A stretch of DNA of 64,000 nt from positions 1-64,000 of the forward strand of contig VBBQ01000030.1 of assembly GCA_005888755.1 (NCBI GenBank), given 5' to 3'. A program made the translations under genes and the position numbers. Shown in pieces: positions 5,683-53,042 of this stretch. Below the pieces are notes generated by a model. The model worked only from the letters and a program-made list of their open reading frames with translations. It ran no database searches and was not told the origin of the DNA. How positions within the stretch are numbered: position 1 is the first letter of the stretch; every line of letters starts with the position of its first letter. The stretch comes from Candidatus Bathyarchaeota archaeon. GTDB taxonomy: Archaea; Thermoproteota; Bathyarchaeia; 40CM-2-53-6.

Positions 5683-6666
5683 GTGATCGTGTCGATTGAG
5701 GAATTAGGACTCGCGGCTCTGTTCGCCCTTGCTTTCGCCAACGGAGCCAACGATGTAGGAAAGAGCGTGGCATCGTTGATGATGCCAGGACCCTCAGGCT
5801 CGCCCCCGAGAAAGCGTAAGCCACTCATCTGGGGAGGCTTCTTCACTGGCATTGGAAGCGTCTCTGCAATTTTGATCTCAGGTAGACTCTTCACTGTTTT
5901 CACGCCCCAGAGCCTTCTACACACTGCGCCTGAATCGTCTTTCGTTTTGGCAGCGCTTGCTGGCGCGACGTTATGGATTCTTGCGGCGACTCTTCTCAGG
6001 TTGCCAGTTTCCTCGACGCACGCGATCATAGGCGCTCTGGTGTTGTTAGCGGTCTACCTGTTTGGAGTATCAGTGATACAATGGGAGTTCCTGCTGTACA
6101 GGGTGGTATTGCCCTTGGCCGGGGGACCCATAGCTGCGCTTGTGGGAATATACATCATCGATAGGCTGACACGTCGAACCGGGTTGCCAGGTAAACCACG
6201 GCCGCGACTTGCCAGCATTGAGCACTGGGCGTCCGGGGCCGCTGTTTCCTACGCGAGAGGGATTAACGATGCTCCAAAGATGGCGGCTCTGGGAGCGTTC
6301 TTTCTCCTCGCAAATCCCTCTGAGGCAGCCTGGGTTCCATACTCGATTGTTGCAGTAGCGGTCTTGCTCGGCTCACTGGTACTCGGTCATCGGGTGGTGG
6401 TGACTGCGATTGGCAGGCATGCGGCGCTAGATCAGGTTCAGAGGTCGAAGGCTGGGGCGGCCACGGCTCTAGTGGTGTCAGCGGGGGCAATCTTTGGGGC
6501 ACCCATGTCGACGACCCAGGTTCACGAAGGATCCAACGCTGGGATCGGTGGACGCCAGAGTGTCATCAAATCTTCGCTTAGATCAATGCTCTTGCCATGG
6601 CTAGTGACTCTGCCCGGCGCTGGCATACTCGCTGTTGCCGTGTCTTATGTCGTGGCAATGATCTAG
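5683..6666 (+). CDS. pitA: Inorganic phosphate transporter, PiT family
   Basis: Membrane symporter taking up phosphate (probably as metal phosphate) with protons or sodium. The two inverted PiT signatures are present: FANGANDVGKSV near residues 18-29 and SYARGINDAPKM near residues 190-201, each followed by hydrophobic helices; the end carries GAPMSTTQVHEGSNAGIG. About ten membrane segments are visible. 327 residues is normal for archaeal members. Start is GTG 5683, 23 bases after the TPR stop, so the two genes may be co-transcribed. No PhoU-like (DUF47) partner is seen beside it, which is unusual for PiT genes. Confidence 0.93.
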   Translation: MIVSIEELGLAALFALAFANGANDVGKSVASLMMPGPSGSPPRKRKPLIWGGFFTGIGSVSAILISGRLFTVFTPQSLLHTAPESSFVLAALAGATLWILAATLLRLPVSSTHAIIGALVLLAVYLFGVSVIQWEFLLYRVVLPLAGGPIAALVGIYIIDRLTRRTGLPGKPRPRLASIEHWASGAAVSYARGINDAPKMAALGAFFLLANPSEAAWVPYSIVAVAVLLGSLVLGHRVVVTAIGRHAALDQVQRSKAGAATALVVSAGAIFGAPMSTTQVHEGSNAGIGGRQSVIKSSLRSMLLPWLVTLPGAGILAVAVSYVVAMI

Positions 6667-41814: not shown

Positions 41815-42894
41815 TTGCGTTGGCCAACTACAAGGCGGAAGGAGATCGAGGGCAAGATTCAGAGTCAAACTACTTCAACAGGTCAGGTCATAATCAACTC
41901 AGGCCTCGTCTTGCCTACGGAGACAAAGAGTACCGAAGCTGCCGCTCTGGCTCAAACGGTTGTGAGTCAAGTTGAGCCTCGAACCTGGGCTGTATACTCT
42001 GGGCTCGTTCTCACGATGTTCATCTGGGGACTCGCGTGGCCTGTCGGACGAGCCCTCGAGATAGCAAATCTTCCACCAGTCTCTATAGCCGCGATAAGAT
42101 ACACAATTGTCGTCCCAATCCTATTCGCTATTCTCTGGTTGAGAGAGGGGTCTTTCAGAATCGACAGATCATGGATACCGACACTTGTGATAATGGGCGT
42201 CCTCAACACGACACTCTATCAGATCTTCTTTCTCTACGGGGTCAAGTATGCGGCTGCTAGCGACGACTCGTTAGTTATCGGATTCGGTCCCGTGTTGATA
42301 GCCATCATGGCCAGTTTCGTCCTCAAAGAGCGCCTGTCTGGGACCAAGGTTCTGGGATTCGCCTCCGGACTTGCAGGAATCGTCGCGATTTCCCTGTTCT
42401 CACCTAACACCGGCGCTGGGTTTTCCAACCGACTGCTAGGAGTGACCTTGGTTTTTGGGGGCGCCACTGCATATGCTCTGTACACGATAATTCTGAGAAG
42501 ATTCATTGCGGCCAACCATAGCGAGAACCACGGCTCCCAACCTTCTTCGTTATCGATACTCTCATGGATCAGCCTCTTCGGATGGTTCTTCTTCATACCC
42601 TTCTCGTTACTAGAAGCTCCCTGGAATTACACATGGGATGCCGCCTCATGGGCGGGAATAATCTACCTGGCCGTACTGTCAACCGTCGTCGGGTATTTCC
42701 TCTACATTGAAGGTGTCTCAAAGATCGGAGCAGGACGGTCGGCAATATTTGGGAATCTTGTCCCAGTATTCGGGGTCCTCACGTCGTATCTTCTGCTCGG
42801 AGAGAGCCTTAGCTCCTGGACCGCAGTCAGCTTCCTCCTTATCTTCGCTGGAGTACTATTGGTTAATCGAAAGCCGAAGAGCTCCGGTTCCTGA
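41815..42894 (+). CDS. EamA/DMT-family transporter
   Basis: Drug/metabolite exporter with ten membrane helices in two EamA repeats. First repeat includes FIWGLAWPVGRALEIANLPP and VSIAAIRYTIVVPILFAILW; the second includes VTLVFGGATAYALYTIILRR and VPVFGVLTSYLLLGESLSSW, both with the conserved EamA end. The start is uncertain: ATG 41815 gives a long polar N-terminus, while TTG or GTG codons near 41911-41962 would give a more usual protein. Substrate unknown. Ends 53 bases before the CDF gene. Confidence 0.9.
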   Translation: MRWPTTRRKEIEGKIQSQTTSTGQVIINSGLVLPTETKSTEAAALAQTVVSQVEPRTWAVYSGLVLTMFIWGLAWPVGRALEIANLPPVSIAAIRYTIVVPILFAILWLREGSFRIDRSWIPTLVIMGVLNTTLYQIFFLYGVKYAAASDDSLVIGFGPVLIAIMASFVLKERLSGTKVLGFASGLAGIVAISLFSPNTGAGFSNRLLGVTLVFGGATAYALYTIILRRFIAANHSENHGSQPSSLSILSWISLFGWFFFIPFSLLEAPWNYTWDAASWAGIIYLAVLSTVVGYFLYIEGVSKIGAGRSAIFGNLVPVFGVLTSYLLLGESLSSWTAVSFLLIFAGVLLVNRKPKSSGS

Positions 42895-42946
42895 GCCCAT
42901 TTCTAATACTCTTAACTTCAAGAGAGCGCGAGGAGCGTTACCTCTC

Positions 42947-43852
42947 TTGGGCCTAGACCTTTCAGTATCATCCCGTAGTGCTGAGAAGCGTCTCTGGATC
43001 GCTCTCATCATATCCTCAGTAATTGCCATCATTGAGTTCACCGGGGGCTTTCTAGGCCAGAGCCTCGCATTGGTCAGCGACTCCGGCCATGTCCTAACCG
43101 ACGTTCTAGCGGTTGGTGTAGGCATCCTCACACTGAGACTGGGACGGAAGCCTCATACTGCAAGACGGACCTTCGGCTATCATAGAGCAGAGATTTTCGC
43201 GGCCCTGATCAATGGGTCTGTCCTGATAGCCGCTGCCTTCCTGATAATTTTCGAAGCGTACCTGAGACTTCGCCAACCTCCAACGGTCCAAGGACCGCTC
43301 GTCCTAGCAATAGCATCAATCGGTCTCATGGGAAACCTCTCTAGCGCGGGCTTGCTGTCCCAGTGGAGAGGGTCCAACCTCAATGTCAAGGGCGTATTCC
43401 TCCACACGGTCGGAGACGTCCTCTCATCCCTCGCCGTGATCGTTAGCAGTCTGATCGTGATATTCACGGGGTACCTTGGAATTGACCCGCTCGCCGCAGC
43501 TATCATCGGTGTCTTGATCATGCGAAGCGCCTTTGTCCTCGTCAGAGACTCGACAAACATCCTTCTCGAAGCAACCCCCCGACAGATGCAACTAGAGACC
43601 ATAGCCAAGACAATTCGCAGCGTCGACGGGGTGAAGGGAGTGCACGACCTTCACGTTTGGACCATTACATCCGGTCTCTACGCGCTCAGCGGACACATTA
43701 CCGTAGGCACCGACAGCATCGGTCAAGGCTCAACAATCGCGGAGAAGATAGAAGTCAAGCTAAAGGAGTCATTCGGAATAGAACACGTCACCCTTCAAGT
43801 CGAGAGAGAGACGCTAGAGAATATTCAGGAACACGAATCTTCTACGATTTGA
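42947..43852 (+). CDS. Cation diffusion facilitator (ZnT-like)
   Basis: Proton-coupled divalent cation exporter, probably Zn2+. Six membrane helices; zinc site residues are in SDSGHVLTDVLAVGVG (helix 2) and LHTVGDVLSSLAVIVSS (helix 5). The cytoplasmic C-terminal domain (SVDGVKGVHDLHVWTITSG, then HITVG) is the dimerising ferredoxin-like fold. TTG 42947 preceded by GCGAGGAGC gives a 301-residue protein, the family norm; the frame extends upstream only because it overlaps the EamA gene in another frame. Confidence 0.92.
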   Translation: MGLDLSVSSRSAEKRLWIALIISSVIAIIEFTGGFLGQSLALVSDSGHVLTDVLAVGVGILTLRLGRKPHTARRTFGYHRAEIFAALINGSVLIAAAFLIIFEAYLRLRQPPTVQGPLVLAIASIGLMGNLSSAGLLSQWRGSNLNVKGVFLHTVGDVLSSLAVIVSSLIVIFTGYLGIDPLAAAIIGVLIMRSAFVLVRDSTNILLEATPRQMQLETIAKTIRSVDGVKGVHDLHVWTITSGLYALSGHITVGTDSIGQGSTIAEKIEVKLKESFGIEHVTLQVERETLENIQEHESSTI

Positions 43853-44782: not shown

Positions 44783-45703
44783 CTATAGGACCAGTTCCTT
44801 TGGGACCATCCTCATGGCTTTCGCATGTGGGTTCTCTGGGAACAGCTCGGGATGTATCATGTGAGCTAGGATCTCAAGTCCATCTACCACCCTGGGGCCT
44901 GACCTGCTGAAATACGCGGACGCATCGACCGCATAGATTCTCGAGGACTGGAACGCGGGGATCTTCTCCCATCCTTCGTACGACGCCAGCACGTGGGCCT
45001 CTTCCATAACTTGACTTGTCTCGAACCCGCAGGGAGAGAGTACGACTATCTCAGGTTGGTACTCAACAACTTCGTCCCATCCAATTCTGTGAGAAGGCTT
45101 GCCGAGACGGCCAAGCCCGTCAACTCCTCCAGCGTAATCGACCATCTCGGGAATCCAGTGTCCGCCCGCCCAGGGAGGCTGAAGCCACTCCATAAAGAAA
45201 ACCCGCGGCCTATGTCGTACCGTCTGCGCTTTCTCCTTTACCATGTTTATTCTTTGAAGCATCTGCCGAGCCAGTTTCTCAGCTTCTGCCAGCCTGCCCG
45301 TCATCCTGCCAACTAACAAGATGTTGTCGACAATCTCTTCCAGATTCGTCGGTTCTAGCGAGACGATCTTCGTATCTGCATTCAAGACCCGAGCCGCTTC
45401 CTTGACCTTAGTATAGGAAACGGCACAAACATGACAGAGTTCCTGAGTCAGAATAAGATCCGGTTTCAACTTCTCAAGAAGCTTCTCGTCAATCTCGTAA
45501 ATGTCGCCTCCGCGCTGTCCCACTTCCCTGTCAACCTCCAAGCTTCTGTGGATCTTCTGGTGAATCGCCGACTTCGTCAAAACCGGCCGATTGGACGCTT
45601 CATGAGGATAATCACACTCATGGGACACCGCGACAACTTGGTCTCCAAGACCGAGAGCGAATGCGATCTCTGTGGCGCTGGGAAGTAGGGAGCAAATTCT
45701 CAT
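44783..45703 (-). CDS. BtuF-like cobalamin-binding protein without signal peptide
   Basis: Substrate-binding fold of cobalamin/iron-chelate transporters. It starts RICSLLPSATEIAFALGLGD and contains HECDYPHEA, ILTQELCHVCAVSYTKVK and GMTGRLAEAEK-type blocks, as in proteins annotated as cobalamin-binding. No signal peptide or lipobox is present, so it is probably cytoplasmic; the ELCHVC cysteines are typical of this intracellular subfamily. ATG 45703. It is divergent from the ECF S-component gene with 81 bases between, and a TATA-like stretch there can serve both directions. Part of the proposed B12 cluster. Confidence 0.82.
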   Translation of the reverse strand: MRICSLLPSATEIAFALGLGDQVVAVSHECDYPHEASNRPVLTKSAIHQKIHRSLEVDREVGQRGGDIYEIDEKLLEKLKPDLILTQELCHVCAVSYTKVKEAARVLNADTKIVSLEPTNLEEIVDNILLVGRMTGRLAEAEKLARQMLQRINMVKEKAQTVRHRPRVFFMEWLQPPWAGGHWIPEMVDYAGGVDGLGRLGKPSHRIGWDEVVEYQPEIVVLSPCGFETSQVMEEAHVLASYEGWEKIPAFQSSRIYAVDASAYFSRSGPRVVDGLEILAHMIHPELFPENPHAKAMRMVPKELVL

Positions 45704-45740
45704 TTTCGGACCTTGTAGCTCACTTCATTGTTCTCGGAAA

Positions 45741-45774
45741 GGATATATTTAACGGGCGGGTAACTTTGCCCGCT
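45741..45774. promoter_or_regulatory. Shared TATA box and 19-bp operator upstream of ECF S component
   Basis: A TATA-like stretch (GGATATATTTAA, 45741-45752) reads as a promoter in both directions (AAATATAT on the minus strand). Right after it lies GCGGGTAACTTTGCCCGCT (45756-45774), an imperfect palindrome with arms GCGGG and CCCGC. The same 19 bases recur at 48673-48691. Placed at the expected transcription start of the gene at 45785, it looks like a repressor site. The repeat is seen directly; regulation is inferred. Confidence 0.65.
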
Positions 45775-45784
45775 TCTCCCACCC

Positions 45785-46465
45785 TTGAGCAGCCAACTCA
45801 GCCCACCAACGGTCTTCGACCGACCTTCAACCAAAGCCATGATTGTATCAGTTTTCACAGCACTTTCCCTTGCGACCAACTATGCGCTCATTGGTTTTCA
45901 AAACGTCAAACTAATGGACACTCTGGTCTTCATCGTTGCATTCCTCTTCGGCGTTCGGCTTGGAATCGGAGTCGCCGTATCTACTTGGCTTGTCTATGGG
46001 CTGGTCAATCCCAACGGGGTGGACGGTCCCATCATCCTATCTTTCTTGATCCTGGGAGAGTGTTTCTACGCCCTCAGCGGAGCTATCCTCAGCCGAACCT
46101 CTGTCGGCCAAGAACTCTCGAAGGTGAAACCGACTGATGATAGCCCGAGAATTACGGGAAGAACTGGCGTCTTCCGAAGCCTCGGTCGACGAATTAGAAT
46201 ACTGAATCCGACCCGGAGCCTTGTATTCGCGCTGGTTGGCTTGCAAGCCACTTTTGGTTACGACTTGCTCACAAACTTTGCAAGCTGGGTCTTCTTGACC
46301 ACTTCTCTCTATCAGGCCTTCATCATAGGCAACATTATCGGTGCCCCCTTCTCAGTTGCGCACGAGAGTAGCAACACAATATTCTTCGCAACCGTGGCGC
46401 CTGCTGTTATCGTTGCAGCCAGACGTATGGGAATAGGATTCCACGCAAGAGGTCGAGTCAATTGA
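45785..46465 (+). CDS. ECF transporter S component (vitamin-binding membrane protein)
   Basis: 226 residues with six membrane helices: SVFTALSLATNYALIGFQNV, then LMDTLVFIVAFLFGVRLG (typical N-terminal helices of ECF S components), a glycine-rich region, and NPTRSLVFALVGLQATFGYD leading to the last two helices. S components bind a vitamin and dock onto a shared energising module (A and T subunits), which is not in this window. TTG 45785. The next gene overlaps its stop by four bases. Its neighbours point to cobalamin as ligand, by inference. Confidence 0.75.
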   Translation: MSSQLSPPTVFDRPSTKAMIVSVFTALSLATNYALIGFQNVKLMDTLVFIVAFLFGVRLGIGVAVSTWLVYGLVNPNGVDGPIILSFLILGECFYALSGAILSRTSVGQELSKVKPTDDSPRITGRTGVFRSLGRRIRILNPTRSLVFALVGLQATFGYDLLTNFASWVFLTTSLYQAFIIGNIIGAPFSVAHESSNTIFFATVAPAVIVAARRMGIGFHARGRVN

Positions 46466-46983
46466 GGGTCGGTTTCATCAGTCAGCACAAGGCATTCTTC
46501 TCAATCATCATTCTATTAGCCGCGATAATCGTCGCCGTCCAAGGTAGTGCTTTCTATTACTATCAGAAATCGAACAGCGCTTGCCCAAGTCCCTGCCAGG
46601 GATCCACGGTCACGGTCGAGACTCTGATAAACTACGGAAATGGAACTAGTCAATGGATTAACAGGAGCAACATACCTTCGAGCTGGAACTTCTACGACTT
46701 GACGAATAATATCACGACGGTTCAAGCCATTTATTATGGACCCCCGACCTCCGAGCACCTGGTGACTGGAATAAATGGTGTGCATAGCAACGGGCAATAC
46801 TTCTGGAGCTTGTGGGCTGTATGCCAGAAATCTAAGGCGTGGATAGCGACCAGCGTTGGTGCCGACGCGATTCACTTTACGACCTATCATACGCTTGCTT
46901 GGTTCTACCAAGCGGCAAACTCGCAAGACTCGTCTAACTGGAACCCACCCGTCGCTGGAGCAGCGAAAGTAACTATGTGCTAG
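46462..46983 (+). CDS. Membrane-anchored DUF4430 protein (transcobalamin beta-domain fold)
   Basis: 173 residues: a signal anchor at residues 10-32 (AFFSIIILLAAIIVAVQGSA) followed by an exposed domain with the DUF4430 pattern: VTVETLINYGNGTSQWINRS, WNFYDLTNNITTVQAIYYG, VTGINGVHSNGQYFWSLWAV and HTLAWFYQA. This domain corresponds to the C-terminal half of human transcobalamin/intrinsic factor, which closes over the vitamin. Cysteines at CPSPC and near the end may form disulfides. It overlaps the S-component gene (ATTGA), so the two are one operon. Family call is good, ligand B12 is inference. Confidence 0.75.
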   Translation: MRVGFISQHKAFFSIIILLAAIIVAVQGSAFYYYQKSNSACPSPCQGSTVTVETLINYGNGTSQWINRSNIPSSWNFYDLTNNITTVQAIYYGPPTSEHLVTGINGVHSNGQYFWSLWAVCQKSKAWIATSVGADAIHFTTYHTLAWFYQAANSQDSSNWNPPVAGAAKVTMC

Positions 46984-46986
46984 GAT

Positions 46987-48612
46987 TCAGGTTTTACCGT
47001 CAGCTCTATCCTTCTCCATCTTGTCTTTCATCCTGCGGTTCGATGCTCCGTAGCCACCGCCGCCAGGAGTTGTCACAGTTAGAACGTCACCACTGTTTGC
47101 AGTAAGGGTTGTCTTTGAAGACAAACCGGTGATCAGGTTTCGCCGCACGATCCCATATGCGCCCGGTGATCCCGACATTGCTCCTGACAATCCCCAAGGT
47201 CCGTGGCGTTGTCGCTCTCCCATCAACGAGACGGTAGATTCCCCGGCCAACACCTCTGTGTCTCTCCTGATGCCTAGTCCTCCCCGAAACTTTCCTTTTC
47301 CACCAGAGCCTCGTACCAGTTCGTACTTCTTGATCCTCAGGGGATATGCTGATTCCAGGGCTTCTACAGGCGTGTTCAATGTATTAGTCATGTGACTATG
47401 AATTCCGTCAACCCCGTCTTTGCTGTGCCGGGCGCCGAACCCGCCAGCGATAGTCTCATAGTAGGTGAAGTATTTCCCGGTGCGTGGGTCAATTCCTCCG
47501 ATGGTTACGTTGTTCATTGTCCCTTGACAAGCAGCACATACTCTTTCTGGAGAGATACTGGAGAAGGCCTTGAGAGTTACGTCAACAATTCGTGTCGACG
47601 TTTCCACATTCCCACCTGCCACTGGCGCAGGCGGTTCCGCGTTTACAATGGTCCCGGATGGTGCTGTAACGTGAATGGGTTTGAAGCAGCCTGCGTTTGC
47701 GGGAATCGAAGGATCAGTCACGCAGCGCACCACGTAGTAGACGGCTGACAGAGTGACGCTGTATACAGCGTTCAAGGGTCCCTGAACCTGTTTCGCAGAA
47801 CCGGAGAAATCAAATGCTATTGATTGTGGACCAATGGTGACTTTGACCTTGACCGGGATATCAGTTGTACCAAAACCATCGTCGTCGAGATAGTCAACCG
47901 CCGAAGACGACTTTCTAGGCAACTCCTGAATCCTCTTGAGCATCAGCTCCTCGGAGTAATCGATCAATTGATCCATACCCGCTTCAACTGTTGAGGATCT
48001 CGATTTCTTCAGTAACTCTACCAAACGTTTCGCGCCCACAAGGTTCGCGGCCCGTTGCGCCCTGAGATCTCCCAATCTCTCGTCAGGCGTCCGAACATTC
48101 AACAAGACGAAGTCGAGGATTTGCCGGTTCGGTTTGCCCCTTGTCCAGATTTTGATAGGGGGAATGCGGATTCCTTCCTGGTTAACGTCTCTTGATAGAG
48201 CCGACATGCTTCCAGGCGCTACTCCTCCAACGTCGGAGTGATGGGCACGGTTTGCCGCAAACCCGATTAATCGCTCCTTGAAGAAGATCGGCGAAACCAT
48301 GGTAATGTCCGGAAGATGTGTCCCGCCCCGGTACGGATCGTTGAGGATAATGTCGTCACCTTCCGAAAAGTCATCTTTGAACTCTTTCAGGACTGCCTGT
48401 ACCGAGTATGGCATCGCGCCGAGATGGACTGGAATGTGTTCTGCTTGAGCTACTAGTTGTCCTGAGGCGTTGAAGAGGGCGCAGGAGAAGTCTCTCCTCT
48501 CTTTGATGTTAGGGGAGAAGCTGGATTTTCGGAGGACGACTCCCATCTCTTCGGCGATGGAGATGAGTGAATTCTTGAGAATCTCGAATGATATTGGGTC
48601 AAGATTCTCCAT
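46987..48612 (-). CDS. hyuB: Hydantoinase B/oxoprolinase family protein
   Basis: ATP-dependent N-methylhydantoinase or 5-oxoprolinase, B subunit. The usual motifs are seen: DPISFEILKNSLISIAEEMG at the start, DIILNDPYRGGTHLPDITMV, FAANRAHHSDVGG, CVTDPSIPANAGCFKPIHV, GGNVETSTRIVDV and the end RGSGGKGKFRGGLGIRRDTE. 541 residues is normal. The A subunit is at 50824-52902, also on the minus strand, but two other genes lie between, an unusual split. Substrate (hydantoin, oxoproline or another lactam) is not fixed. Confidence 0.93.
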   Translation of the reverse strand: MENLDPISFEILKNSLISIAEEMGVVLRKSSFSPNIKERRDFSCALFNASGQLVAQAEHIPVHLGAMPYSVQAVLKEFKDDFSEGDDIILNDPYRGGTHLPDITMVSPIFFKERLIGFAANRAHHSDVGGVAPGSMSALSRDVNQEGIRIPPIKIWTRGKPNRQILDFVLLNVRTPDERLGDLRAQRAANLVGAKRLVELLKKSRSSTVEAGMDQLIDYSEELMLKRIQELPRKSSSAVDYLDDDGFGTTDIPVKVKVTIGPQSIAFDFSGSAKQVQGPLNAVYSVTLSAVYYVVRCVTDPSIPANAGCFKPIHVTAPSGTIVNAEPPAPVAGGNVETSTRIVDVTLKAFSSISPERVCAACQGTMNNVTIGGIDPRTGKYFTYYETIAGGFGARHSKDGVDGIHSHMTNTLNTPVEALESAYPLRIKKYELVRGSGGKGKFRGGLGIRRDTEVLAGESTVSLMGERQRHGPWGLSGAMSGSPGAYGIVRRNLITGLSSKTTLTANSGDVLTVTTPGGGGYGASNRRMKDKMEKDRADGKT

Positions 48613-48645
48613 AGCAAGCGTCTAGTCTCGAGTGTTGCTTCGCTT

Positions 48646-48691
48646 AGCTTATATGGGAGGTTCCCGCCCAGAGCGGGTAACTTTGCCCGCT
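48646..48691 (+). promoter_or_regulatory. TATA box and second copy of the 19-bp operator
   Basis: GCTTATATGG (48647-48656) is a TATA-like box; GCGGGTAACTTTGCCCGCT at 48673-48691 is identical to 45756-45774, here extended to a 7-bp dyad (GAGCGGG and CCCGCTC). The TTG that best starts the downstream protein (48683) lies inside the element, so the operator covers the transcription and translation start. Confidence 0.65.
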
Positions 48692-49837
48692 CAGAAGTAC
48701 TCGCTACAAGCTGCAATATGGATCGTTATTCTCCTAACCCTAAGTATCGTCTCGCCAACGCACTATTCCAATGCTGCTACGACTTCTCAAACTTCCGCCG
48801 CAAAAGCAGCCTTGAATTGGCTGTCAAGTCACGAGAAAGCTGACGGGTCTTTCGAGGATTTTTCTCAAATTCCGACTCCTGGTGCGGCTCTTGCGCTTTG
48901 GTTGAATGATTCGCACTCAGCCCAGGCTGGAAGATCTCTTACCTGGCTTGCTTCTCAGCTTGACAACTCCTCAAGCTACGCGTGGGGAGAGGCAGACATT
49001 CCCGGAGCGATGCTCTACACCTTGGCCGTATCGAACAACATTGGGTTGCTTGATAAGTTCGCATTAGTGTCATCGGAGATCGGAGCTTACCAGCAACAGA
49101 GCAGCGGTTTCATCGGGTACTATGCGCAGTCACCGGACGGTAACTACGTACAGGTCGCCACAAGTGTCGACACGGCGATGGCTCTTCGGGGCATGTCTCA
49201 GTCCAACTCTCCAATCTCCTTGCAAAATCGAACTTTCGCACTTGACTATCTCGTGTCACTTCAGAACGTTGATGGAAGTTTCAATCTGACAAGAACGATC
49301 TCCCAGAGCTCTACAGACGCGCTAGGACCTGAGAGGATTAGCATGACTGCTCTGACACTCTTGGCACTGAGATATGCGGGAAAGTACTCTGCAAACGACA
49401 ATACTGTGTCGAAGGCCCTGGACTTCCTAACCAATACGATTTCTAAGAACTTCACAACCACTGGTGATCACGAGGGGCATGTCTACGGTGCCGCGCTGTC
49501 TGCGTTGGCCTTTCAGGCGTACGGTCGAACCGTTCAAGCGTTAGCTTCAGTTGCCTTCATCCTGACCCAGCAAAAATCGGATGGCAGTTTTCTTGATACT
49601 GCAAGGGGATCTTCTCAGAAGACTCTTGATACTGGCTGGGTGACCGTTGCACTGGAGCAAGTTCAGTCGGGACCGTTATTCACTTCTTTTCTCCCTCGAA
49701 TACTCTTGGTCGGGATCATCGTCGCAATAGGAGTTGTCGTAGTTGTCGGTGTTGTGGTTGCCTATCTTGTGCTGAGGCGTCGCGCGGCCATGCAAATGGA
49801 GCCTTCAGGAGCAATCTCTACCATCTCTACTCATTAG
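48683..49837 (+). CDS. Membrane-anchored alpha-toroid protein (transcobalamin alpha-domain-like)
   Basis: From TTG 48683: signal peptide (AAIWIVILLTLSIVSP, cleavage after SNA), then an alpha/alpha toroid of the terpene-cyclase/prenyltransferase repeat type, shown by repeated WL or YL + Q + DGSF blocks: LNWLSSHEKADGSF, FALDYLVSLQNVDGSFN and FILTQQKSDGSFLD. No DCTAE-type catalytic acidic motif is seen, so it is not a cyclase. A C-terminal membrane helix (IIVAIGVVVVVGVVVAYLVL) anchors it with a basic stop. The fold matches the N-terminal domain of transcobalamin. Shares the operator with the S-component operon. B12 binding is inference. Confidence 0.72.
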   Translation: MPAQKYSLQAAIWIVILLTLSIVSPTHYSNAATTSQTSAAKAALNWLSSHEKADGSFEDFSQIPTPGAALALWLNDSHSAQAGRSLTWLASQLDNSSSYAWGEADIPGAMLYTLAVSNNIGLLDKFALVSSEIGAYQQQSSGFIGYYAQSPDGNYVQVATSVDTAMALRGMSQSNSPISLQNRTFALDYLVSLQNVDGSFNLTRTISQSSTDALGPERISMTALTLLALRYAGKYSANDNTVSKALDFLTNTISKNFTTTGDHEGHVYGAALSALAFQAYGRTVQALASVAFILTQQKSDGSFLDTARGSSQKTLDTGWVTVALEQVQSGPLFTSFLPRILLVGIIVAIGVVVVVGVVVAYLVLRRRAAMQMEPSGAISTISTH

Positions 49838-50231: not shown

Positions 50232-50723
50232 TTAGTTGTTCGTGGAGTGCTTCGTGGCCGATGGGCCTTCGAGCGCGTGAACCAGGTTGACGACAACTCG
50301 CAGCGTTGGAAGCAATGCTATCAAGAGGAATATCAGTGGATAAGCCCAAGGCGCGCTGGTGAAGTACTGGCTGGCAATACCGTTGCTCACACTGTAGAGT
50401 ATGACGATCGCTATGATCTGGAAGATGTACGCTAGCAATGGAACCCATGTCTGGTAGTTCTTGTACGCGTCCGAGACCGCTTTCGAGAGCTGTGTTCCGA
50501 ACTTGAAAACGATCAGAGCCACGACAAGCCCGATCATGAATACAGCAATGTTCGCGATGGATATGGTGCTGCCTGTGATGTTCTGGCTGATACCCGGAAA
50601 GCCGAGCACAACCGCCTCGATAATCACTAGTACAATGACGCCCGCGATCAATCGTATGAACGCCGGCATGACTGGAGTAAACGCTCCCCACGTGCTGTTC
50701 GAGCCGCTTTGCGTATTGGTCAT
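50232..50723 (-). CDS. Four-helix membrane protein, unknown
   Basis: From ATG 50723 (MTNTQSGSN) the protein has four membrane segments: FIRLIAGVIVLVIIEAVVLG, IANIAVFMIGLVVALIVFKF, WVPLLAYIFQIIAIVILYSV and YPLIFLLIALLPTLRVVVNL, with a short loop AVSDAYKNYQTW. Resembles generic archaeal membrane proteins of unknown function. It lies between the hydantoinase genes on their strand, 101 bases from hyuA. Confidence 0.65.
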   Translation of the reverse strand: MTNTQSGSNSTWGAFTPVMPAFIRLIAGVIVLVIIEAVVLGFPGISQNITGSTISIANIAVFMIGLVVALIVFKFGTQLSKAVSDAYKNYQTWVPLLAYIFQIIAIVILYSVSNGIASQYFTSAPWAYPLIFLLIALLPTLRVVVNLVHALEGPSATKHSTNN

Positions 50724-50823
50724 ATTTTCTTCACTGTTAGAGCAACTTACCAAGCGCTATCCGATATTGCCCTGTTGAAACCAGCGCCACCAGGTTCGAG
50801 TAACAGCCTTGTTCATCCCAGGC

Positions 50824-52902
50824 TCAGATCGCGATAGAAACCGATCCATTCCGATCGACCACGTACCTTGCGCGAGGCGGAATCACCAGGGTTGAATCGT
50901 AGTCCTCAATCACGCACGGTCCCTTTCCCCTATTGGCAGGAAGCAGGGTGTTCCGCTGAAAGACCTGACACTCGACACTGCGTTCATCCGTGAACCAGAC
51001 TCGTCTCCTCTGCACCGTGCCCTTCTCTCGTGCGAAACTGACAGTTACTCCAGAGGTCGTATCGGCCTTTCCTCGACCGGAGCTGCGAACGTTGACAATC
51101 TCGACAGACTTGTCCGGCTGAGAATACCCATACTGCGTCTGATGTCTCTGATGAAAATCGCGAACAGCAGATCGAACCACGTTCCTAGTAATAGTCCTGG
51201 TCCGTAGAGGAACTGATAATTCATAGGATTGTCCCTGATACCGCATGTCCAAGAACCTCTGATAAGTTACATCCTTCTCTTCCACCCCTTCTATTCGGAA
51301 CAGACCTCTCGCTCTCCCTTCCATCCCGCGAAAGAACTTCTCAAGCTCCTTGATGCTGGCACTCTCTGCGTTTCTCAGTACTGTCTGGACAGAGTCATGC
51401 AGCGGTTCCGCAAGAAGGAGACCCATGCTGGACAGCAGCCCCGCAGCCGGAGGCACAACGACCTTCTCTATCTCTAGCTGTTCAGCAACCTCACAGGCAA
51501 ACATCGGCCCCGCTCCACCAAATGCCACCAGAACCATTTCACGAGGGTCAAGACCCTTTTCCACCGTCGCCGCCCGCAACGCCTCCACAATCCTCGCGAC
51601 AGCTATTCTCAGAACGCCCATAGCACCAGAAGTAACTCCCATTCGGAGCGGCTTCGCAACCAACTCCGCAACAGCCCTGTAAGCAAGCTGTGGGCTCAAC
51701 CGCAGATCCCCTCCGAGAAGGAAGCTAGAGCTCAACCGGCCAAGAACAAGAGACGCATCCGTTAACGTCGGCAGTCTCCCACCTTTCCCATAGCAAGTCG
51801 GACCCGGCAGCGCTCCAGCGCTCTGAGGCCCAACATGGAGAACACGGGCATTATCGACCCAGGCAACGCTTCCACCACCGATCCCGACCTCAACAAGGTC
51901 TACTACTGGAAATCTGACAGGGTATCCTGATCCTTCAACTCGCCTCGTTCCGTGCAAGCGGCCACCAACCTCATACTCGTTGGTCACCTCGAATCCGTGA
52001 CCGGACCATACTCCTGCCTTCGACGTTGTCCCGCCGACGTCGAGAGAGATGATGCTTTGAGAGCCGCTAGAGTAGAACTTCGAAGCCACCGCTCCAGCAA
52101 CAGGTCCTGATTCTATGAGACGAGCTGGCTCAATGATTGCTTGGCGAGAGAGCACAGTTCCACTATTCGACTGCATTGCAAACAGAGGCGCGTGAACCCC
52201 GAGTTCCTTAATCCCTTGTTCCAGTTTTTCTAGGTAGTCTGAGAATAGCGGCTGCAGACAAGCGTTAACGACTGTAGTGCTGGTTCTCTCGTACTCTCGA
52301 AACTCAGGAAGAAGCTCCGAAGACAAAGACAGCTTCGCACCAGGATGCTCTCTCCTGAAAATCTCCCCAAGCTTCTTCTCATGTCTCGGGTTCGCGTAGG
52401 AGTGAAGAAGGCAAACGGCAACCGTTCCAATACCGAGTCTTCGAATCCTTCTCGCAACCAGAACGGTCCCTGATGTATCAAGCGGTTCCAGAATCTTCCC
52501 TTCATAGGTGATTCTCTCCTGGACCTCGAACCTGTATCGCCTCGGGACCAGTGGAGGCAGACGGTCGACCTGAAGATTGTACAGTTCAGGCCTGTTCTGG
52601 CGCCCGATCTCCAGAACGTCTCGAAAGCCCGCGGTTGTCACGAGAGCGGCCTTAGGAATGCTTCCCGTCAGAAGCGCGTTCGAGGCGAGCGTTGTCGCAT
52701 GAATGACGACTCTAACATGCCGAGCGTCAGCCTTCTCTTTTTCCAACAATCTTCGGACAGCGTCAAGCGCTCCGACCGATGGATCCATCGGAGTGGTCAG
52801 GACTTTGATCTTCCAGACCCTGCGTTTCTCGTTTGTAGCCACGAGATCCGTAAACGTTCCACCGATGTCGATTCCTACCCTGACAGTGTTTCCTGCAACC
52901 AT
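50824..52902 (-). CDS. hyuA: Hydantoinase/oxoprolinase family protein, A subunit
   Basis: ATP-dependent A subunit of N-methylhydantoinase/5-oxoprolinase. From ATG 52902 it shows the ASKHA-type phosphate motif RVGIDIGGTFTDLVAT at the start, VVIHATTLASNALLTG, then SIISLDVGGTTSKAGVWSGH, a conserved IGIGGGSVAWVDNARVLHV-like stretch, GPTCYGKGGRLPTLTDA and LVAFGGAGPMFACEVAEQL. About 692 residues, as usual. The frame extends to 52968 but the earlier ATG is not needed. It faces the mre11-like gene (divergent, 140 bases). Confidence 0.93.
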   Translation of the reverse strand: MVAGNTVRVGIDIGGTFTDLVATNEKRRVWKIKVLTTPMDPSVGALDAVRRLLEKEKADARHVRVVIHATTLASNALLTGSIPKAALVTTAGFRDVLEIGRQNRPELYNLQVDRLPPLVPRRYRFEVQERITYEGKILEPLDTSGTVLVARRIRRLGIGTVAVCLLHSYANPRHEKKLGEIFRREHPGAKLSLSSELLPEFREYERTSTTVVNACLQPLFSDYLEKLEQGIKELGVHAPLFAMQSNSGTVLSRQAIIEPARLIESGPVAGAVASKFYSSGSQSIISLDVGGTTSKAGVWSGHGFEVTNEYEVGGRLHGTRRVEGSGYPVRFPVVDLVEVGIGGGSVAWVDNARVLHVGPQSAGALPGPTCYGKGGRLPTLTDASLVLGRLSSSFLLGGDLRLSPQLAYRAVAELVAKPLRMGVTSGAMGVLRIAVARIVEALRAATVEKGLDPREMVLVAFGGAGPMFACEVAEQLEIEKVVVPPAAGLLSSMGLLLAEPLHDSVQTVLRNAESASIKELEKFFRGMEGRARGLFRIEGVEEKDVTYQRFLDMRYQGQSYELSVPLRTRTITRNVVRSAVRDFHQRHQTQYGYSQPDKSVEIVNVRSSGRGKADTTSGVTVSFAREKGTVQRRRVWFTDERSVECQVFQRNTLLPANRGKGPCVIEDYDSTLVIPPRARYVVDRNGSVSIAI

Positions 52903-53042
52903 TTCCTTTCCCTGCCTTCTGACGAATCTCGCACGCTTCCTGCTTTGTTCGAGATTCGACAGGGTCACGTTCGGCTATCTCCAACTCTTAATATCGTTCC
53001 AGTTCATCGAACATGCCGGTTGCCTTCAGTAGTTAGATTACC

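Follow-up and report, generated by a model that had tools for sequence, protein, structure and literature searches.

The animal carriers of vitamin B12, transcobalamin, intrinsic factor and haptocorrin, combine, like the archaeal system analysed here, an alpha6-alpha6 toroid with an SLBB-type beta domain. The animal carriers are single secreted proteins that are directed to an endocytic receptor, whereas the archaeal locus encodes the two domains as two separate membrane-anchored chains, which would deliver their ligand to an ECF S component. In prokaryotes, transcobalamin-like SLBB proteins found with CbiO/CbiQ operons were described in 2007, with B12 scavenging as the proposed role of those in bacteria; transcobalamin-like proteins were also noted in archaea, where their function was left open and where, in archaea that make B12, a distinct metabolite was suspected (Burroughs et al., PMC1796856). 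These systems share with the present one surface SLBB and toroid domains tied to ECF genes and hosts without B12 synthesis, and differ from it in that toroid-SLBB fusion is the common architecture there, while toroid and SLBB are split here (PMC1796856). What the present analysis adds to them (PMC1796856) is a host without CbiC, CbrT-like S components, an operator (putative) and a phylum-wide gene pairing.

For CbrT of Lactobacillus delbrueckii, transport of cobalamin and cobinamide has been demonstrated by experiment (PMC5997447, PDB 6FNP), and ECF-CbrT resembles the archaeal system, as predicted here, in an S component that works on a shared ECF module and in a B12-auxotrophic host (PMC5997447). 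The sections of that report used for this comparison contain no mention of a surface capture protein, whereas the archaeal system is predicted to have such proteins. The B12 route of B12-dependent archaea that have no BtuCDF is often unassigned, and a 2026 study of marine heterotrophic Nitrososphaerota reported that they are auxotrophic for B12 and that nearly all of the genomes lack vitamin transporters (PMC13374868); the phylum-wide pair of S component and DUF4430 genes described below is a testable candidate for such a route. An earlier note on this DNA had presented a two-gene transcobalamin as new for archaea. The split version was indeed not found described, but the claim was overstated, since archaeal transcobalamin-like proteins were noted in 2007 (PMC1796856) and other archaea of the phylum have toroid-DUF4430 fusions. 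In the open-access literature, which misses most subscription papers, neither the archaeal system nor its shared promoter element was found described beyond the 2007 prediction.

Gene content, S component and need for B12

The locus is located in the window, i.e. the whole 64,000-bp stretch of DNA that was analysed, which belongs to a genome of 2.01 Mb in 48 contigs that is ~95% complete. Matching loci are carried by related genomes from soil metagenomes, which bear the label Candidatus Bathyarchaeota or Crenarchaeota 13_1_40CM. The four ORFs named in the earlier note (BtuF-like, S component, DUF4430 and toroid) are all present at the positions it gave, and the features of the locus are as follows.

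44783-45703, (-) strand: BtuF-like gene (Peripla_BP_2, PF01497 at 7e-24)
45756-45773, (+) strand: 18-bp palindrome GCGGGTAACTTTGCCCGC, putative operator, between the TATA box and the predicted start of the S-DUF4430 transcript
45785-46465, (+) strand: ECF S component gene, CbrT-like (PF12822 at 8e-6); the start may be a downstream ATG
46462-46983, (+) strand: DUF4430/SLBB gene for a membrane-anchored protein resembling the transcobalamin beta domain (from model, relatives and profiles)
46987-48612, (-) strand: hydantoinase B/oxoprolinase gene, which separates the S-DUF4430 unit from the toroid gene
48673-48690, (+) strand: second, identical copy of GCGGGTAACTTTGCCCGC, which includes the TTG start codon of the toroid gene (48683)
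48683-49837, (+) strand: toroid gene for a secreted or anchored alpha6-alpha6 protein (from domain matches and model)

The S and DUF4430 genes overlap by 4 bases and together span 45785-46983. The hydantoinase B/oxoprolinase gene is not part of the system; in the second subclade of the genus the locus lacks it. A hydantoinase A gene (50824-52968), likewise on the (-) strand and likewise missing from that subclade's locus, lies beyond the toroid gene and a small membrane protein gene, both of which are thus enclosed between hydantoinase B and A.

Taken alone, the S protein of the window matches PF12822 (ECF_trnsprt) below the Pfam cut-off, and its relatives confirm the family. A profile of the S proteins from the window's genus found CbrT (6FNP) at 0.29; when the nearest Bathyarchaeia relatives were included (profile A6), 6FNP was the sole PDB match, at 1.8e-5, and with a profile of 37 DUF4430-linked S proteins (A4) CbrT came first at 2.7e-22, against 3.4e-8 for the S component ranked after it. 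Comparison of the S profiles A3 and A4 gave 1.5e-34. Because the 37 proteins of A4 were gathered by an iterated profile, the independent check on this set is provided by the Pfam counts: 26 of these 37 distant relatives match PF07155 and 24 match PF12822. By Pfam and NCBIfam, the S proteins belong, mostly through weak matches, to broad ECF groups named for riboflavin and folate. Based on the B12-specific CbrT as its nearest solved relative, the S component is predicted to serve B12, in agreement with the earlier note. Genes for EcfA, EcfA' and EcfT form one operon elsewhere in the genome (G000:C16), apart from the S gene, which is the arrangement of group II ECF transporters.

None of the 18 genomes of the genus yielded CbiC, an enzyme that corrin ring synthesis requires and that control archaea do have, and de novo corrin synthesis is therefore not expected; judged by its gene content, the host appears to be a soil archaeon unable to make vitamin B12. 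B12-binding domains were found in all 18 genomes (in four of them only below the family cut-off), and the source genome encodes a small protein resembling the B12 subunit of methylmalonyl-CoA mutase as well as a corrinoid-binding protein.

The two anchored proteins

The DUF4430 protein consists of an N-terminal transmembrane segment followed by a predicted extracellular domain. Searched by itself against Pfam it had no match, including to PF14478 (DUF4430), a family that matches 6 of the 17 members of its protein family (best 6.8e-5); profile-profile comparison of this family with the DUF4430 relatives of the phylum gave an E-value of 3.9e-31. Its AlphaFold2 model (pLDDT 77) displays a beta-grasp domain preceded by an N-terminal helix; strands and helix of the domain come in the order E49-57, E63-72, H77-84, hairpin E87-92/E98-104, E114-121, E126-129 and E144-150. 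In this model a beta-hairpin is inserted after the helix and followed by three strands, which is the arrangement that defines the transcobalamin-like SLBB clade. When the model was compared with known structures by Foldseek, entries of transcobalamin, intrinsic factor and haptocorrin filled ranks 1-17 (best 3.5e-5), ahead of a Ruminococcus protein, and a profile built from 33 DUF4430 proteins sampled throughout the phylum, run against solved structures, placed transcobalamin-1 (0.0022) and intrinsic factor (0.017) first, with modest E-values. Structure model and relatives' profile support the DUF4430 fold proposed previously, as a beta domain of the transcobalamin type.

For the toroid protein, domain matches were obtained to TED (4e-10), SQHop and Prenyltrans. 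Its model, of moderate confidence (pLDDT 64), comprises an N-terminal signal or transmembrane segment, 12 helices over residues 36-326, and a transmembrane helix followed by RRR, so that the expected alpha6-alpha6 toroid is borne out by the model and by the toroid matches. By structure and by profile, the matches were to AprG, squalene(-hopene) cyclases and TED domains, and the transcobalamin alpha domain was absent among the matches listed. The protein is an alpha6-alpha6 toroid, but it is not specifically a transcobalamin alpha domain, and its sequence is not specifically closest to that of the animal carrier. A function as terpene cyclase is unlikely, since the protein has the look of an exported one and its alignment shows no conserved DxDD motif of class II. 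Six of the 11 members of the toroid family possess an additional PKD domain. An SVDT stretch, present in 10 of the 11 but not in distant archaeal toroids, resembles the signature of the animal cobalamin binders.

A palindromic element at both transcription units

At up to two mismatches, GCGGGTAACTTTGCCCGC occurs at exactly two sites in the 2-Mb genome; the palindrome has two unmatched position pairs near its centre. In the S promoter it begins 3-5 nt after a TATA box at ~45742-45752, and in the toroid promoter it is located ~17-18 nt downstream of a TATA-like box, at the start of the gene and not far upstream of it, as it contains the TTG start codon. The earlier note had assigned a shared promoter element to the S, DUF4430 and toroid genes; such an element is real and precedes the S and toroid genes, but there is no separate copy for the DUF4430 gene, which overlaps S by 4 bases and would be transcribed from the promoter of S. 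Between the btuF-like and S genes (45703-45785), the TATA-like sequence adjoining the element could serve both directions.

A 17-base form of the motif was searched for, allowing one mismatch, in 38 genomes of the order, with the reversed motif as a control. It was found at 34 sites in 19 genomes, all of one family and with one or two copies per genome, while the control gave none, and by their coordinates all 34 sites precede an S or a toroid gene. Within a divergent subset the motif is 97-100% conserved, compared with ~50% for its flanks. A genome from another genus of the family (G018) has the gene order toroid-S-DUF4430 with a single motif in front, and a further one from this family (G020), in which the toroid was not found, has S-DUF4430 with one motif; there are thus as many motifs as transcription units. 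Outside the soil Bathyarchaeia, the motif matches listed are scattered over unrelated organisms, as chance predicts.

From its sequence and position we infer that the element is a putative operator for a repressor. Coding constraint was rejected as an explanation, the reading frame at the S gene differing between genomes; for the toroid, the TTG start falls within the element in 11 of 11 aligned proteins. An RNA hairpin is disfavoured, as the element at the S promoter lies mostly upstream of the expected transcript start, and neither a cobalamin riboswitch nor any other Rfam RNA was found in the window.

Conservation of the gene set and proposed cobamide uptake

The S, DUF4430 and toroid genes are linked throughout the genus and, in rearranged order, in G018, so that the neighbourhood is conserved as the earlier note had anticipated. 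Synteny in the genus is long, however, extending from a CDF gene through Mre11-Rad50 and including the small membrane protein, and linkage within the genus alone is therefore weak evidence; the case rests on the operator, on the rearranged operon of G018 and on the phylum-wide pairing. Of 398 genomes sampled from the phylum, 92 have PF14478, and 60 loci from 59 genomes were surveyed. An S gene is present in 55 of these 60 DUF4430 loci, at no more than 205 bp from the DUF4430 gene in 52. Toroids fused or adjacent to DUF4430 are encoded in L287, L288, L289 and L291; in L306 there is an adjacent one. In 398 genomes sampled in the same manner, CbiC occurs in 139, and together with DUF4430 in 6 where 32 are expected (Fisher p 1.5e-12, a test that ignores phylogeny); counted by genus, the two occur together in 3 where 12 are expected (p=1.4e-4, likewise ignoring phylogeny). 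This avoidance speaks to the doubt raised in 2007 over B12 scavenging in archaea, which often make B12 (PMC1796856).

Some of these loci are of interest in their own right. In a genome of the same class (G040), L288:4951-11551 encodes a toroid-DUF4430 fusion, a second DUF4430 protein, EcfT, a fused EcfA-EcfA and an S component, apparently a complete operon. L289, from the same order (G022), carries ArsR-DUF4430, BtuR adenosyltransferase, toroid, toroid-DUF4430 and S; the fusion of an ArsR-type winged helix to DUF4430 (L289:6479-6970 and 5832-6365) adjoins BtuR and the toroid/S cluster, and is a candidate one-component corrinoid-sensing archaeal regulator.

Taken together, the locus probably encodes an ECF-type importer for cobamides (vitamin B12-type compounds) whose capture apparatus resembles transcobalamin but is made of two chains. 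The beta domain, together with the toroid where present, would bind the cobamide on the outside of the cell and hand it over to the S component, which would dock on the EcfAA'T motor encoded elsewhere in the genome; the cobamide would then be released into the cell, where corrinoid proteins, methylmalonyl-CoA mutase among them, would use it, and a repressor acting on the 18-bp site would switch off both units together when cobamide is plentiful. The defined operator would be a starting point for finding an archaeal B12-linked regulator. A more specific proposal, to which we give not quite an even chance, is that anchored toroid and beta domain form a two-chain transcobalamin that closes on one cobamide and passes it to the CbrT-like S component, under its own cobamide-responsive repressor with a regulon of these genes only, and that, more broadly, an S component with a tethered beta domain serves this archaeal phylum in general as a module for B12 uptake that has gone unannotated. 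If true, the design of the animal B12 carriers would exist in split form in archaea.

The S component and beta domain might also be a complete cobamide importer, with the toroid a co-regulated helper that does something else, such as binding to the cell envelope or to a different form of corrinoid, and no two-part clamp. Such a division of labour fits the lack of a toroid match beside S-DUF4430 in most of the 60 phylum loci and in G020, the nearer relation of the toroid sequence to terpene cyclase and TED toroids, and the crystallisation of the isolated human beta domain with cyanocobalamin (5np4), from which it follows that a beta domain can bind alone. It sits poorly with the private operator common to the toroid gene and the S unit, with the row of toroid, S and DUF4430 genes in G018, and with the toroid-DUF4430 fusions at L287, L288, L289 and L291, and we regard it as rather unlikely. 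Unlikely, too, is that the same architecture serves another ligand, be it cobinamide, another tetrapyrrole or an unrelated vitamin (riboflavin, folate, pyridoxine): the riboflavin and folate names of the broad ECF families, mostly weakly matched, and the distinct metabolite suspected in 2007 for B12-making archaea (PMC1796856) are set against CbrT as best PDB match by a wide margin, a beta domain that matches B12 carriers, a host genus without CbiC, and BtuR adjoining the cluster in L289.

In the earlier note the BtuF-like protein belonged to the system as the part that handles the cobamide inside the cell; that it forms the importer jointly with the ECF components we now consider improbable. 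Its gene adjoins the S gene divergently in 11 of the 18 genomes of the genus, with the operator in the intergenic region common to both, and may be co-regulated, since the operator lies within its promoter region. Within the genus the full-length protein is confined to the subclade in which the gene adjoins S, and it was not found in six members that keep the other parts (G002, G008, G009, G011, G012 and G016). As no signal peptide is apparent in its N-terminus, it is probably cytoplasmic, and in contrast to BtuCDF no BtuC is available as a partner: no FecCD/BtuC permease was found in the source genome, and 2 of the 18 genomes of the genus have one over the cut-off. The protein therefore drops out of the core and is at most an accessory of one subclade. 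That the neighbourhood is incidental synteny of genes with separate functions seems highly improbable: the conservation across the genus of CDF, the small membrane protein and the Mre11-Rad50 block would fit it, but neither the private 18-bp element at exactly these units, nor the linkage kept through rearrangement in G018, nor the phylum-wide S-DUF4430 adjacency would.

Further observations concern genes around the locus and one distant relative. The CDF cation efflux gene (42707-43852, (+) strand) stays upstream of the S gene throughout the genus, and a link to cobalt or zinc is possible. In G184, which has CbiC, L290:7070-15034 encodes a protein of ~2650 aa with several DUF4430 copies, next to S-like genes and other surface genes. 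The small membrane protein gene (50232-50753, (-) strand) is convergent with and downstream of the toroid gene; its product has no Pfam match and is ~68-98% conserved in the two subclades of the genus as well as in G018.
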